DNA from: Amphiura filiformis
Taxonomy: Eukaryota > Echinodermata > Ophiuroidea > Amphilepidida > Amphiuridae
Direction: 5' to 3'
Assembly: GCF_039555335.1 (NCBI RefSeq)
Contig: NC_092628.1
Span: forward strand, 60,933,547-60,997,546
DNA length: 64,000 nt
The notes beneath the pieces were generated by a model. The model was not told where the DNA came from and searched no databases. It saw only the letters and a list, made by a program, of their open reading frames with translations. This document shows positions 7,101-59,021 of the stretch, piece after piece. The first letter of the stretch is position 1. Each line of letters opens with the position of its first letter. The position numbers were made by a program, and so were the translations under genes.

Positions 7101-10100
7101 TTAGGATTGTTTTGAGAATTTGAAAGAATTTTTCTGTTTTGACATGTGTCAAAGGCTTTACTCATGTCGAGTATATCAATTATGATTTCGTAGTTCGATG
7201 TTATTATTTATTACAGGTGCTCTACAAGACTACTAGGGGCCGGGCACACAACGCCTGCACTTGGTTTATCCCGATCCATGCTCGCTCTCGCAGGTTTTCT
7301 CCGGTTTCCTCCTGCTTTCAAAATCGGTGATTAGTTGTTTCGTTATCAAAAACTTCCTTCACCCAATGGAATTTGGGGAGTTGCAGAAAATGGGTGGATG
7401 TTACAATCTAAGTGCGCATAGGTTTGCGCCAGGTTCGGCTGCAGCTAGCCTAGTTGATGCGACCTGATTGTGATGATTCACCACGCAGCGAAATTACAGC
7501 GCTTTGAATCCTCTGGAAAACCGCTATATAAATTCCGAAATTTATTATTTATTATTTATTTATTTATTATTATTTATTTATTATTTATTGATTATTATTA
7601 TTTATTTTTATTATTATTTTATTTATTTATTTGTTTATTTATTTATTTACGGTAAAACGCAGAGATGCTTAAGATTGGTCTGTTTGCAGAATTGGAATAT
7701 TCCCTGATTCATCTCTGTTGCTGTTTTACCGGCGCGGTGTCTGCCATGAGCTGCCATGTAAGGTATTAGCGATTTGGTATTATGTCTTCTGGTCCGAATT
7801 TAATAAATTCTGCAGTCATATGTTGTCAATGCCAGGGCTTTTGTTATTTTTTCAGGAGATTGCATGGTATCTTCATTCATTTGCCGTGAAAGGTTGATTA
7901 ATTTTGGTTGGATTCATATTGTGATGTGATCAAGCAAAATCAGTCGGAAGGCGGAATCATTTAGGCCTATTTTATGATACAGACAGTTTCCTATTGTCTT
8001 AGAAGTCTTTTGAACTGGTTGTCCATTTTCAATGGGAATTTCTGCACAATGTAGCTTTGCAAATGCTTGTTACAATCCAATAAGAAACTGAAAAGTGAAT
8101 ATAACCGACTTCAGACTGATTTTGCTTGTTATAACGTCTTTACATCAATCAAATTTGGTTCAATTTCAAAGCAAAGGAGCTTAATTAATATATTATGTTC
8201 GACTTGGTCAAAAAGTGTTACGATTGTCCGCAGCTGCCAAAATCACCTTTTACCCGAACTCACACGAATGCACAACACAAAATAATACATTGTTTGATTA
8301 AGGGCTGGGGTATGAACGTTTGGACAGTATTTATTTTGGGACATCAGACATATCGAATTGCATTCTGAATACGAAGAATGTCATTCTGATATCAAATAAT
8401 TTTGATTTTTGAAATTCGCAATTTAATACACATTTTATGGCAAATCATTAAAATTGATATTTTTGATATTTAACAGTACTTGAAGTAAACTTTATAAATC
8501 TGATGATTTATACTTAAAGTGTATGTAGGTGGGATGAAAAAGCCGACGATCAATTGAAAATTTTGACCTTTCGTATTGAAGATATGGATTTTTTCCCAAA
8601 ACACCAAAAAAAATAAGGTCTTTTTGGGAAAAAATCCATATCTTCAATATGAAAGGTCAAAATTTTCAATTGACCGTCGGCTTTTTCCTCCTGCTACATA
8701 CACTTTAAGAATATATCATTAGATTTATATAATTTACTTCGAGGACTGTTATATATCAAAAATTTGAAAAATATCAAATTTTTATAATTTGTCATAAAAT
8801 TTGTATTATATTGTGATTTTCAAAAATGAAAATTATTTGATATCAGAAAGACATGCTTCGTATTCAGAATGCAATTCGATAGGTCCGAGGTGCTCTAAAG
8901 TCCCACAAAAAAATACTGTCGAAACGCAATAAACGCTCATTTTAGATCCCTTAAGCTAACAAAATCTAAGTCTTTTGAAAACAAAGTATGATTGGTACAT
9001 AACAACAATACGGTATTGCATATACAATAAAATCACACAATCAGTTTTATTCTATCAGTACTTAACCAGCGGTCTTCTTGTTGGTGATCCTAGAGTTCTT
9101 GCAATGTTCTGGACGACTGATGTAATATATCCTTATTCACTTATCCTGCGAAAATCAGCGAAGTCCAGTGTACACTTGCGTTTGTAAATATCATTGCGTA
9201 TAAAATCCTCACACGAAAATGATGCTGCTTTCTCCAAAATATATCTCCTTGCGCTGCTTTCTCCAAAAATGGTGCCATAGTTTCTTTCACCAATCGCTCT
9301 TTCTCCAGGGAACAGGTTTGACAGATGTGTGGTTTTCATAAACCCAGCAAACTCCAGCAATTCGACAGAAGAACTTTAATCCTTTGATGAGGAAGAGCAC
9401 ATTCACGTAGGCCTACTCATAAATCTCCTTCGTTGCTGTATTGAAATAGCTCAATTATTGGCTATGTAAACTGGTTAAAATGCACTTCTTGTTTGAAGCA
9501 CGAAGACCATCACACACATGTGTAGTTTTGCAATCTCCCATGACATTCTGTAAAGTCCAAACTCAAGCCTCCAGCTTTTATACTGTGATGTGCCCTGAGT
9601 AATTTAATTTGATAATTTATCTCTGTGTACAATTAAAATCTATTTTATGAAACATTTTAGGGATTCCCCTTTCTTGCATCAACTTGATCAAGAACAAATT
9701 GAATTATTTCTAATTTTGGATCATATGGGAATACCCCTAGAGATTGTAAAGTGAAGATGATGTCACGGGATTCCCCTCAGGAAGTGATGTCAGGGGATTC
9801 CCCTCAGGAAATGATGTCATGTGAAAGGTTAATGTTATAATTAAGGCTTGGGAATTTCCAAGATCACATTTGGCTATTAATATTTGGGATTTCCCACTGC
9901 TTGATAAATTAAAAAAATGTAAACACAATTATTATTGACACAGTTGATAGTGTTGATCTTGGCTAGCTAGCTAATATGCTTACAGTACAGTTCCTTCAAA
10001 GAAAGGAAATTGCAAACCAGAAATATTTTATGTAGTCAAAGTACTACTATTTGCCAGTGTTGTCGGAGAAGATCTAGAATACGTCAAAGAACGTACTTCT

Positions 10101-14315: not shown

Positions 14316-14754
14316 CTGCTGAATTATGACATATGGCACATCCTTAAGGGTATATGAGGTATTGTTGGTCGAAGCATCGATTTTCATTATCTGAATCAAT
14401 ATATTATTGAAAAATCACACTTTGGTGTTTTGAAAAAGTTCATTCTACAAATCATATACTTTGAATTTATTGTTGTTAATGAGTTATGGACGTTTTACAA
14501 AAGTGTTGTTGTTTCAGCCCTCTTTACAACATAACTCAAGAACCACAGGACCTACAAAAGTATATCTGTGATATTTGAATTCTTCTACACGCTCGCTATG
14601 AATTGAGCAATGCAATTTTTGCTGAAGCTCACTACCATTCGCAAGATGCTGTGAACTATATTCTTTTGTTGCTGCTTCGACCAACAATACATCGTATACC
14701 CGTTAGTGGTATCAGTGAGCTGTATTTGTAATTTGTGGGAGAAGGGGCATTTAA

Positions 14755-15044
14755 GGGATCCAAAATGAGCGTTTATTGCGTTTCGACAGTATTTTTTGTG
14801 GGACATGAGAGCACCTCAGACCTATCGAATTGCATTCTGAATACGAAGCATGTCTTTCTGATATCGAATAATTTTCATTTTTAAAAATCACAATATAATA
14901 CAAATTTTATGACAAATTATAAAAATTTGATATTTTTCAAATTTTTGATATATATATAACAGTCCTCGAAGTAAATTATATAAATCTAATGATATATTCT
15001 TAAAGTGTATGTAGCAGGGAGGAAAAGCCGACGGTCAATTGAAA
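14755..15044. mobile_element. Half copy of the TTAA foldback MITE
   Basis: After TTAA at 14751-14754 it matches one arm of 8302-8950 and 42651-43288 (GGGATCCAAAATGAGCGTTT...), then stops at the palindrome centre near 15044. The second arm is missing, as expected if the palindrome was resolved by deletion. Confidence 0.85.
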
Positions 15045-15560
15045 ATTTTGGCTATTCCTCGAGTCATAACGATTCAGAAAAAATATAGTTTGCCATATCT
15101 GTGATGTACGGTTCTTGAGTTATAACCGAAAAGGTCAAAGGTCAAATGTTGGGTTCCACAGAGGTCAAAAAACTAAACATTGTCTGATTTTAACCAAAAT
15201 GGTCTCAAATTATTCGGCTTGCAAACATAATTCATTTAAAGAATATTTGCACTGTTTAGTTTGTTTAATTACATGCGTAACATCGAAAACTAGGTCGGGG
15301 TCAATAGAGTTCAATGGTCAATGACCTCTTTTACCCTGCTACCTAGGTAACGAAACATCCAAGATATGGCAAACTATTCTTATTTTGGAGTGTTTTTAAA
15401 GGACGAACACATTGAGACCATTTTCAAGGAGATCGGAGCATTTTTTCGAAGTTGACCCACGTGGAGCCCAAAATTTGACCTTTGACCTTTTTGCTTATAA
15501 CTTGAGAATGGTACATCACAGATATGACAAACTATACTTTTTCTGAATCCTTAAGACTAG
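15045..15560. repeat. Dispersed repeat with internal inverted symmetry
   Basis: The motif ATATAGTTTGCCATATCTGT near 15085 recurs inverted near 15520 (ATGACAAACTATACTTTTTC). The middle matches ~2180-2300. The family word GGTCAAAGGTCAAA is present. No ORF. Confidence 0.6.
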
Positions 15561-16231: not shown

Positions 16232-25455
<9,224 letters not shown>

Positions 25456-29815: not shown

Positions 29816-30834
29816 AGTGAATGGATGAATAGTAAATTAATTATACTCCTCACCAAAAACATTTTATAAAAATGAAAAATATAATTCAGTTCATAAAATG
29901 CAGACAGTGTTTCTAATTGGCATATTTATTCTTAGTGTATTAACTCAGTGATCCCAGCTGTCCCTCAACCAATTACAACAATTCGGCGCGGTATTTGAAT
30001 CTTGTTCTGTGCATGCTTTTGGCTTGGCCCAATTCCAAGAAAATACAAATTGTATGCCCTATGAATGTTCTGATGTTATTGGTGAGGATTATAATTCACA
30101 ATACACTCCAGACGCATAGTAACTTGCCCTATCATTTGTTATAATGCACCAACTGACATCTTTTGAGTTATATAGGTTGTGCATGAAATTATTGATTGGC
30201 TCCAAACAAAGGATTTGAACCGGTGTCCTTCACCGAAATCATGGCACAGTGCAGTCCATTCAATCAAATTATTGTCATCAACCTATTTGATCGTAGTGTA
30301 TTTGTTATGCATGTGAGACGACCTCTCGCGGTAGATTGCAAACATGCTTTTGTTGAATGCATTTGAGTGAATTAGTAAAAGGATCCAAGAAAAAAGGGTG
30401 GTATCACTGATCAATATGCATGATTACAATGTTCAAACACCCCTTATTGTAAATAGATTATCCCATCAAAAGTTTCAAGGCATTAGGAATATTCGGCTGG
30501 ACCCAGATATCTTGCTGTAAATCGGTCAAAATTGAATAAAAGTAGACAAGGAAGAATATTTTTTCATCGCTTTACTAATAATTTCTGTTAGGTCTGACCG
30601 TGTTTAGCAGCTTTTCTTTCATGACGTTTTACCAAAGTAAAAACTTTTCGAAATATATCCTAAAAACCGGGTGTCTAAGTTATTTGGACAGACAATAGTA
30701 TATGGACAATTTATAAGTGTGTTCTTTCATTTAATGACATAAAATTTGAAAAAATATTGTATGGAACACTTGAGGTTTTGAATTTTTGGTCAAAAATGTG
30801 CTTGACGTAATGAGAAAAAAAGTATTTTTAGGGG
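29816..30834. other. Non-coding; possible tRNA-like scrap at ~30190-30300
   Basis: On the minus strand, GGACACCGGTTCAAATCC at about 30206-30223 resembles a tRNA B box, so an old SINE head is possible. At 30718-30770 a stretch matches the flanks of the TTAA element 42651-43288 with nothing inserted. Confidence 0.35.
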
Positions 30835-31173
30835 GAAGTGTTAGCTTTCGTTCGATATAAAAAAATTCTTATTGGATGAAGGGAACACTTGAGGTTTTGA
30901 CAAAAACCGATTACAGATTCCTATTTTCCACTAGATCTTTAGAATTCTTTGGCCTTTTTATAAAATACTGACACTGTGCTTCATATAATTCAGAATGAGC
31001 AGGGTGGCGGGGGTGGGGATGTGGAGGTGGGGATGTGGTACACACAAACTCTATGGGATTGATATTTTAGTGCATAAAGGCTGTAAATTGGATTTTGACT
31101 CTATTTAGCATCTAAATGATTCTTGACCTTACAGGTAAGCAATTCTAATAGTTGTTTTTAATCATTTATGATT
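30835..31173. repeat. Left 339-bp direct repeat flanking the Tx1/L1-like LINE
   Basis: Runs from GAAGTGTTAGCTTTCG to CATTTATGATT and is repeated at 32748-33090 with only about six to eight differences. The poly-T of the LINE starts directly after it. Confidence 0.9.
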
Positions 31174-32747
31174 TTTTTTTTTTTTTTATCTTTTATTTTA
31201 TTTGCTTCGTTGATTTCATCACATTATATATTTACATAACTCATTTGTTCTCACTTAACTAATTTCTGACTTTGCTAATTTCTACAATTTTTACTACATA
31301 AGCTTTCTGATTCTTAATTCAGAATGTAATAGACTGATCAAATCTGGATATTTCCCGTAACGATATTTACTAATTGACAGTTTACTAACACTTATTATTT
31401 TATTGATTGTAGTATTACATTTTCCTGCATGGTAGTAACCAAAGATAACATCTGCTTGTGTGGTTTTAATTTTAACATTGTAGTGTTGCAAAATTATTTT
31501 GTCCACTTCGCTCCATATCTTTTTATTTTTTTTTGTAAAAAAAAAAAAAAGTGTTCAATATAATCTACTTCGTTACAAATTTCACATACATTACTTTGTT
31601 CTTTTCCTATTTTGTTAAGAAAGACTTTTGTTGCATAAATATTACTGGTTATTTTCCAATTCAATGTCATTAGCCTAGGTTCTTTTGTTGCCAGAATATT
31701 TTTCCAAATTTTGCTCCAATTGAATTTCATATTTTTGAATTTATTTTCCCAAAAGGTTTGACATATTGGTTTAGTCGAAATCTTTGATAACATAGCTTTC
31801 CTATATAATTGTGTGGTGCAATTCATTAATGCAACAAAAGTTTTTCCATCATAAAAGTATATGTCCTTGTTAATAGCATTCTGCTGTTTATTTTTGCATG
31901 TCTTTAAAATTGCTTGTTTTAGAGCTAAATATTGTATACAAACACTGGCTGGCTGTGGAAACCTACTTTTGATTTCGTCTAGTGAATGAAAGACACCGTT
32001 TTGATCATACAAGTCTGAAATACATATTATACCTCTTTTAGCCCATTCCTTGTAATAAAATGTCTTACCTCTGCTAATTATACAAATATTGTTCCAAATA
32101 ACTTCATCTCCCCAGTTTTGCACTTGGTTTTTGTCTTGAGTACTTTTTGTTGACAACCATACCTTGATTAGATTTCGGTAAAACATGGGCATCTCATTTA
32201 TTATATATCTTACAACTGCATTGATATTTTCAAAATTACAGTTGCACTTAAAAATATGTACGCCTAACTGGGTTTTATTAATAATATATAAAGGAATATT
32301 TTTCCACGTGCTGATTTCTGACGATGCCAACTTTTTTATCCATAACAACTTCAATGAGTCCAGAAATATTTTAAAATTGAACATTTTTAGGCCACCGTTG
32401 TCGTACTCGTTTACTAGTGTTGTTCTTTTAACCTTTTCCGAACCTCCCCATACAAACTTAAAAAACATACTATTTACTTTATTTACAAAACATTGTGGTA
32501 AGTCTATTATTGAACCTATATTTGAAAATTTTGATGCCATCAAATTTTTTACTATGAGTATTTTACCAACCATTGATAGGTTTCTCATTGTCCAAGCTCT
32601 TATGGACTTTTCTATTAAGACCATTTTCGGTTCCCAATTTGCAGACAACTCTTCAATATTAATTAATGGGTTAACTACTACTCCTAATAATTTGACACTG
32701 TTATTTGGTTCGAATTTCCAATTGATGTCACCGACCTTCTTTTTCAA
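31174..32747 (-). mobile_element. 5'-truncated Tx1/L1-like LINE
   Basis: Minus-strand insertion with its poly(A) tail seen as a T run at 31174-31188, and its truncated 5' end abutting the right direct repeat at 32747. The coding part is the region after the reverse transcriptase of L1-clade ORF2. Confidence 0.9.
31294..32747 (-). pseudogene. Tx1/L1-like ORF2 C-terminal portion
   Basis: A frame of 417 codons from 32747 down to about 31494 contains KILIVKNLMASKFSNIGSII, MFFKFVWGGSEKVKR and GGLKMFNFKIFLDSLKLLWI, the signature of the post-polymerase region in Tx1/L1 LINEs of aquatic animals. A Cys-rich motif near the end (CEICNEVDYIEH) is the usual C-terminal zinc knuckle. Near an A-run at 31537-31550 the frame slips and continues as 31506-31294. 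Endonuclease and polymerase domains are absent by 5' truncation. Confidence 0.9.
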
Positions 32748-33090
32748 GAAGTGTTAGCTTTCGTTCGATATAAAAAAAATTCTTATTGGATGAAGGGAAC
32801 ACTTGAGGTTTTGACAAAAACCGATTACAGATTCCTATTTTCCACTAGATCTTTAGAATTCTTTGGCCTTTTTATAAAATACTGACACTGTGCTTCATAG
32901 AATTCAGAATGAGCAGGGTGGCGGGGGTGGGGGATGTGGAGGTGGGGGATGTGGTACACACAAACTCTATGGGATTGATATTGTTAGTGCATAAAGGCTG
33001 TAAATTGGATTTTGACTCTATTTAGCATGTAAATGATTCTTGACCTTACAGGTAAGCAATTCTAATAGTTGTTTTTAATCATTTATGATT
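32748..33090. repeat. Right 343-bp direct repeat flanking the Tx1/L1-like LINE
   Basis: Second copy of 30835-31173; differences are single-base changes (TCTAAAT/TGTAAAT, TATAATTC/TAGAATTC) and extra bases in A and G runs. Confidence 0.9.
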
Positions 33091-33094
33091 GGTT

Positions 33095-34010
33095 TAGTCT
33101 AGAAAGTACAGATTTGACATTTAATATGGAATATATTTTCGCAAAATTCCACGACTGGTCTGGACGGAGTCTGCTTAAAGCGCACGGACTAAATATTAAT
33201 TGGGGTGTGTCGGGAGATGGTGTAAAATAATTATTTGATAGAAAATGTGCTTCCCTTAGTTAACATTATGGTGCTCATAATGTAGGCAATTTGCATAAAA
33301 TGGCGGATTTAGGGAGGCTGAATTTGAGTTTTGTGGGGTACACAATTTCGGACTTTATGCAACATTGTTCTATTATTATCAAATTTATAGGGGTTTGAGG
33401 TTGTATTTCCTACACTTCGTCAGCAAATGGCATTCATTACAGCTGAAATACACTTGCAGTGTACCATTTTTTTTTAAATGTGAGGAGCTTAAAACATGGC
33501 TCTTAAAAGTGGTACGTACTCAGAAAGTTTGAATGGCCCACTGGGGTCAAATGTTATACACTTACGGTACAAAAACATTTACGCGGATTCCTGGTTGTCC
33601 AATGAACACTTTGTGTACAATAAGTTTATAACATTTGGCCCCAGGGGCCCATTTAAAATTTCTGAGTGCCTACCCATTTAGCTCCCTTTTTAAAGCCATA
33701 TTTTTCAAAGCTCCTCCCTCTGTCAAAACCGGTGGATTACAAGTGCATTTCAGTTCTGACGAACACTTATTGGTATTTAGGTTCAGTAAATATCACCTCA
33801 AACCTCAATACATTTGATGATATCAGAGTAATGTTGCTCAAATTCAGAAATTTTACACGCACAAAAATCAAATTCAGTCTACTTTTACACCATCTCCCGA
33901 CACACACAAATTAATATTTAGCCCATGCGGTTTATGCAGACCCCATCCAGACCAGTCTTGGAATTTGCAAAATATTATTCCATTATTAAATGTCAAGTCT
34001 GTACAAACCT
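33095..34010. repeat. Large foldback element
   Basis: The segment ~33110-33235 (GACATTTAATATGGAATAT ... GTGTCGGGAGATGGTGTAAA) recurs inverted at ~33884-34000. A second inner pair is ~33520-33560 and ~33600-33650 (CAAATGTTATA / TATAACATTTG). No ORF of interest. Confidence 0.75.
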
Positions 34011-34289
34011 TTCCATACAAAACTACCCGTTTTCATATTAAACACTGTGGTAAGTAATGTGGATGTCTTCGAGTTCGGGTGAAATCGTGCTAAATCTGGT
34101 GGTGTCAAATTCTGCTGCATGACCCATCGGCATGATAAATTCTATTCAAAAATAAACAAAAAGATGTGCACCAAACCATGATTTGTCAGTAGTTATTAAA
34201 AGAGAGGTTAGTTGACAAAGATAAATAATTCGAGTGTAACTACATGTAAACCAACCGCTGATCTTGAAATGCTGACCCACAAGATTTCT

Positions 34290-38738: not shown

Positions 38739-47691
<8,953 letters not shown>

Positions 47692-58100: not shown

Positions 58101-59021
58101 GTAGTCCAAGCTAAGCTCAATGATAATTCACATCAACCTTGTTTTGTGATTATACAACATTCTTTTTGTGGTTTCAAGTCCATTTTAATGTGCTTGACAA
58201 TCTTAGTGTAAAACTTTTGAAATTAGCGTCTCCAATCATCTGTACCTCTCTTGCTTATATTTGCAATCCATCTCTTAAAACATCTTTTTTCCCTTCTGAT
58301 TGGAAGAAAGCTAAAGTGACGCCTATTTTTTAAAATGATGATAAATATGATGTAAGTAATTACAGGCCCATCTCTGTACTTCCAATTATCTCTAAAATAC
58401 TTGAAAGGGCTGTTCACAATCAACAATAAATATTTGACTAACAAACACATCTTGCATGTCAATCTGGTTGCAGACAAAATAATTCCAATTCCGCTACTCT
58501 TTTAGATGTATCTGATTTTATTCTAAAGAACATGGCAAAATCACTGGAGCCTTATTTCGTGATTTAAAAAAGGCATTTGACACTGTAAACCACAAAATTC
58601 TTCTTGCAAAACTTAAAAGCTATGGCATTACTAGCTAAAGTCATATCTACATGGTAAAATTCATGCTGTAAATGTAAACTCAATACTGTCAAACTTTAAT
58701 GCTATTGACATCGGGGTTCCACAAGGATCAGTCTTAGGACCCCTATTGTTTATTATCTATGTACATACCTTACCTGATTATATAGTAAATTGTAATATTG
58801 ATGACACAACACTTCTTTTCAGTTCCACAGATCCAAATGACTTGATTTCACAAATGCATTGTAACATGTTAAAAATAGATAATTTATTGTATTTGGGACC
58901 AAACATAGTTTAAATAACTTTTGTGATATCTCTCTTACTTACAAAAATAATGTTTTTGAACGAGTAGATGAATTCAAATACCTGGGTGTCATCTTTGATC
59001 CACATTTGTCTTGGAATAAAG

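Follow-up and report, generated by a model that had tools for sequence, protein, structure and literature searches.

A 5′-truncated LINE between near-identical 340-bp direct repeats in Amphiura filiformis, most likely a long target-site duplication

The window analysed here, i.e., the whole 64-kb stretch of Amphiura filiformis DNA, contains a 5′-truncated LINE on the minus strand, each end of which abuts one copy of a direct repeat of about 340 bp. The features of the locus are the following.

30835-31173, left copy of the direct repeat, on the LINE's 3′ side, 339 nt, 98.25% identical to the right copy
31172-31187, minus strand, poly(A) tail of the LINE, read as 16 T on the plus strand, the first two T being common to the left repeat
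31192-31202, minus strand, two overlapping AATAAA motifs just upstream of the tail, presumed polyadenylation signals
31174-32747, minus strand, 5′-truncated LINE insertion, 1574 bp, bounded exactly by both repeats, with an open frame, a weak zf-RVT match and a poly(A)
31294-31554, minus strand, putative remainder of the ORF2 C-terminal region after a change of frame, 86 aa to the stop, with no Pfam match
31494-32753, minus strand, C-terminal part of the LINE ORF2, a 419-aa open frame whose first two codons lie inside the right repeat
32748-33090, right copy of the direct repeat, on the LINE's 5′ side, 343 nt, as aligned to the left copy

The 419-aa frame is open from the right junction down to its stop at 31494, and a frame shift near the T/A homopolymers at 31526-31550 separates it from the 86-aa frame. 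Apart from this single frame shift, the LINE coding sequence is unbroken for about 485 codons, which is in keeping with the 2 substitutions per 339 bp found between the repeats. Beyond the stop at 31294 lie about 105 bp of 3′ untranslated sequence and then a poly(A) of 14 to 16 nt, beside which the AATAAA is taken by us to be the polyadenylation signal. In a Pfam search, the 419-aa frame gave a weak zf-RVT match (residues 341-404, E 3.4e-4, below the gathering score) and a second match at chance level, and neither a reverse transcriptase nor an APE endonuclease domain was detected by Pfam in this truncated copy. A PDB sequence search with the LINE protein returned no useful relative, the only match having an E of 0.24, and a structure model of the ORF was unusable (mean pLDDT 33). 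The label Tx1/L1-like is tentative and goes by motifs in the C-terminal part. A second copy of the LINE was not found in the 64-kb window by tblastn at E <= 1. Relatives of its protein were also sought in non-eukaryotic collections, where 6 pattern stretches in viral contigs and 15 in prokaryote genome contigs yielded no confirmed relative and no phage protein matched at E <= 0.01; because these collections are not eukaryotic, the missing relatives say little.

The self-alignment of the window pairs the two repeat copies at 98.25% identity over 343 columns (E 1.6e-167), which bears out the near-identical repeats placed by the initial annotation at 30835-31173 and 32748-33090. Where that annotation counted six to eight differing positions, the alignment gives 6, i.e., 2 substitutions and 4 one-base indels (A7/A8, T/G, G4/G5 twice, one G insertion and C/G); A or G runs hold three of the four indels, and every extra base is in the right copy. 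The substitution divergence of 2 in 339 bp, or 0.6% (95% interval 0.07-2.1%), is small, suggesting from the repeat sequences that the insertion is young. Among the 9 direct pairs in the 64-kb window (at least 25 bp, at least 90% identity, at most 10 kb spacing), the pair of about 340 bp is by far the longest; the next two, of 144 and 105 bp, are both tandem repeats, and the remaining six are 26-40 bp long, 100% identity being found in two short pairs of 31-32 bp. As a separate observation, five of the six differences consist of a G in the right copy against T, C or nothing in the left, a bias that counts against the single-insertion reading set out below.

Both junctions are flush, as the initial annotation had claimed for the poly(T) against the left repeat and for the truncated 5′ end against the right one. 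The end of the left repeat runs at once into the T-run at 31172-31187, 2 of the 16 T being shared with the repeat, and the right repeat begins at the base next to the truncated 5′ end of the LINE. The outer flanks (TTTTTAGGGG before the left copy and GGTTTAG after the right) are unlike the LINE ends at the corresponding junctions, which are TTTTTCAA before the right copy and the poly(T) after the left. The plus strand of the target ends in ATTTATGATT, with the poly(T) continuing directly from it, and at the left junction the primer strand end ATGATT is thus followed by the poly(A)-derived tract and the AATAAA. Judged by its sequence, the left junction has the normal form of a target-primed 3′ end, although its primer site, GATT/GG, differs from the L1 consensus TTTT/A. 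The locus therefore presents what is expected of a LINE insertion, namely a 3′ poly(A) with an upstream AATAAA and flanking repeats of 339 and 343 nt flush with both ends.

Boundary hairpins were considered as the cause of the cut sites and were rejected after folding and random-position tests. The repeat unit folds with stems at both ends (z -1.75), and 5 of 100 shuffles fold equally well. Once G-T pairs are excluded, a stem matching that at the end of the unit is found at 463 of 3000 random positions, or at 810 of 3000 when either side is counted. Under the same rule no stem forms at the start of the left copy, so that the test there compared against zero and was empty, and the start of the right copy forms a weak stem of -2.8 kcal/mol (random 5% quantile -3.4, 10% quantile -2.1), which was not ranked alone.

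In our assessment, the element and both repeats are likely to stem from a single LINE insertion that duplicated about 340 bp of its target. A nick in the plus strand would have fallen just after what is now base 33090 (or, equally, 31173), with an ambiguity of 0 to 2 T, and the LINE's poly(A) tail would have been reverse-transcribed from the exposed 3′ end. The opposite strand may then have been cut, or an existing nick used, about 340 bp leftward at 30834/30835, after which the freed strand end would be joined to the cDNA and the two single-stranded stretches of 340 nt filled in, leaving a target-site duplication of 339 bp. With the nick on the plus strand and the other boundary 339 bp leftward on the opposite strand, a stagger of this kind gives a duplication and not a deletion. 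What kind of break the second one was, a nick or not, and which enzyme lay behind it, we can only infer. That the repeated stretch exceeds 100 bp is a measurement, and that it was duplicated by the insertion itself is what we infer.

The same final sequence would be reached by one event without a two-nick stagger, in which the end of the cDNA was joined by template switching or replication-coupled repair, e.g., to a sister strand 340 bp back, so that the 340 bp were copied again. A stagger of 340 bp requires melting or gap filling of the whole stretch, and host repair status governs large duplications at L1 sites in the cells described in PMC5223499, both of which speak for such a route; however, nothing at the present locus speaks for it directly, and we regard it as quite unlikely. 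The serious rival is an assembly misjoin between haplotypes, which is unlikely but carries more weight than any other alternative. Here, a contig ending in the LINE, itself longer and with an ordinary short duplication, would have been joined to a contig of the empty haplotype starting 340 bp before the site, creating a false repeat. Indeed, the right repeat passes without interruption into the unfilled site (GATTGGTTTAG), with GGTTTAG following the copy, which is how an empty allele would read. The differences between the copies are also rich in indels, the ratio of indels to substitutions being 4:2 against 206:1177 over all 47 other pairs in the window (Fisher p 0.006), 67:255 over the 20 other pairs at 85% identity or more (p 0.02), 25:98 over the 11 other pairs at 90% or more (p 0.02) and 42:129 over a hand-picked 8 pairs (p 0.04), and none of the 47 other pairs reaches 4:2. 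The homopolymer setting of three indels and the extra bases on the right side likewise favour a misjoin, and the excess of indels would be compatible with errors in the sequence, with slippage in homopolymers or with problems in the assembly. However, the indel evidence is of modest weight, because there are six differences, three of them in homopolymers that slip in living cells, also after an insertion, and because the comparison pairs overlap one another and are older repeats. A misjoin would moreover require joining inside the LINE without a long overlap, no Ns are present in the 64-kb window, which counts against it, and a rare but documented biological route gives an identical picture.

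A third copy of the unit was not found in the 64-kb window: the best low-stringency match outside 30000-34200 is 47 bp at 70% identity (E 0.022), and the sole outside match in the standard self-alignment is a 19-nt exact piece of the unit at 30763-30781, 119 bp upstream. A 25-nt piece of the unit gave 0 matches to viral contigs. The 19-nt piece is an argument for a 340-bp tandem duplication that came first, with the LINE landing later exactly at its junction and making no duplication of its own. In a gapped alignment the match extends leftward to the unit's second base, scoring 25 where the highest of 100 shuffles reached 22, and a start that near to the start of the unit is uncommon (within 3 bp in 51 of 2000 shuffles, which moved blocks of two bases). 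However, with the 19-nt core held fixed, the score of the extended alignment is reached in 214 of the 2000 shuffles. Of the four neighbouring 339-bp blocks, two per side, that were compared with the unit by alignment, the one immediately to the left scored 25 owing to the 19-nt match, whereas the next left block (12) and the two right blocks (15 and 15) are at chance level and hold no remnant of the unit. With no array remnant beside the pair beyond the 19-nt match, a pre-existing array needs the LINE exactly at a unit boundary, i.e., at one position of about 340, as well as the absence of any duplication, and this order of events is very improbable. The stretch 30715-30781 was tried as a degenerate version of the first 66 bp of the unit and set aside, since beyond the 19-nt core the resemblance is not significant by that score, and it stays a loose end. 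An origin of the unit as a dispersed repeat, or as the long terminal repeat of a different element, is equally improbable. The left flank at 30681-30767 resembles a dispersed repeat found at 42599-43324, there interrupted by a small transposon, which lends the idea some colour; however, the unit has no further copy in the window even when short search words are used, it lacks TG...CA ends (it runs GAAGTG...ATGATT), no short outer duplication is seen by reading, and the interior is a piece of LINE whose own poly(A) abuts one of the repeats. A single insertion with a long target-site duplication thus remains the best explanation, as the initial annotation had proposed in writing that one event made both, given the flush junctions, the absence of a further copy of the unit in the window and the lack of an array remnant beyond the 19-nt match.

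The duplication was also called exceptionally long, a description to be tempered, since published LINE duplications in cell assays range from 100 bp to several kb. For the zebrafish L2 element ZfL2-2 in wild-type chicken DT40 cells, one of 25 insertions had a long duplication, of 1228 bp (PMC2666801). In HeLa studies, L1 duplications over 100 bp never exceeded 10% of events, whereas in NER-deficient human cells the median L1 duplication was 1495 bp, with most events over 100 bp; in complemented cells the median was 14 bp, although 3 of 9 duplications were still longer than 100 bp (PMC5223499). The authors proposed the use of a distal, unrelated nick, and suggested that loci with long duplications may be short-lived as their repeats recombine (PMC5223499). 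Extremely long duplications in a HeLa assay went with 5′-truncated L1 copies (PMC2912911), and the LINE at 31174-32747 is likewise truncated. These cell-culture cases are LINE insertions like the one proposed here, from which they differ in that the pair of about 340 bp is one case at a natural genomic locus.

HERV-K is integrated by integrase and, as an LTR retroviral element, differs from the target-primed reverse transcription of a LINE. Its HML-2 group nevertheless offers natural insertions with very long flanking duplications, of 111 and 250 bp, polymorphic in HERV-K, for which a "pseudo-TSD" rearrangement was raised as a rival (PMC5488345). Closer in kind is R9 of rotifers, a non-LTR element with a target duplication likewise over 100 bp, i.e., 126 bp (cited in PMC6895275); R9 is rDNA-specific by the title of its paper, whereas the 64-kb window contains no rRNA match at Rfam gathering scores. 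Second-strand cutting in LINE insertion is described as still poorly understood (PMC6895275). Among shorter duplications, fly LINE-like elements show medians of 12, 25 and 11 bp (PMC8090852) and 7-12 bp is given in PMC2861651, and none of the open-access passages and abstracts consulted gives a natural LINE duplication that reaches 300 bp. Two surveys of natural insertions counted duplications of 5-30 bp only (PMC2912911) and of 5-25 bp only (PMC12016303), and because of these limits longer natural duplications went uncounted in both.

The locus thus most probably represents a real long target-site duplication, an outcome of a known type that is found here in a natural genome. Long LINE duplications are not a new class, and nothing mechanistically new is implied, because cell assays and R9 already provide them; a natural locus is less usual. 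The distant second nick was probably a host-dependent accident and not a habit of the LINE. That this lineage habitually duplicates hundreds of bp in its natural host is improbable; if it did, every insertion would leave a long direct repeat able to recombine, deleting the element or seeding tandem duplications. Long duplications are the readout affected by a lack of host repair factors (PMC5223499), and a well-preserved natural example argues for surveys of duplications without a tight length limit. A short note on the locus and a count across the host genome are accordingly warranted, whereas a new mechanism should not be claimed.

Several other features lie in the window. The left end of a palindromic MITE (33107-34003) is 16 bp to the right of the right repeat; it has TA at both ends, followed by CAGATTTGACAT on the left and preceded by ATGTCAAGTCTG on the right, and its terminal inverted repeats of about 122 bp are 89% alike in a gapped alignment. 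Another palindromic MITE, flanked by TTAA (42647-43292), sits inside the dispersed repeat, of which an uninterrupted version lies at about 30681-30767, just left of the LINE repeat, and related copies occur at 8297-8954 and 14748-15050. A reverse transcriptase fragment of another retroelement is found on the plus strand at 58635-58910 (RVT_1, E 1.6e-4, below the gathering score). Exon-like frames of a subtilase (Peptidase_S8) are present on the minus strand at 39074-39358 (E 2.4e-13) and 18583-18957 (E 1.4e-4), and the stretch at 20867-21349 resembles a further subtilase exon by eye, with no Pfam match. Finally, a degenerate cluster of tandem repeats at 40084-40645 is built from TAGTCCGA-based units in both orientations.
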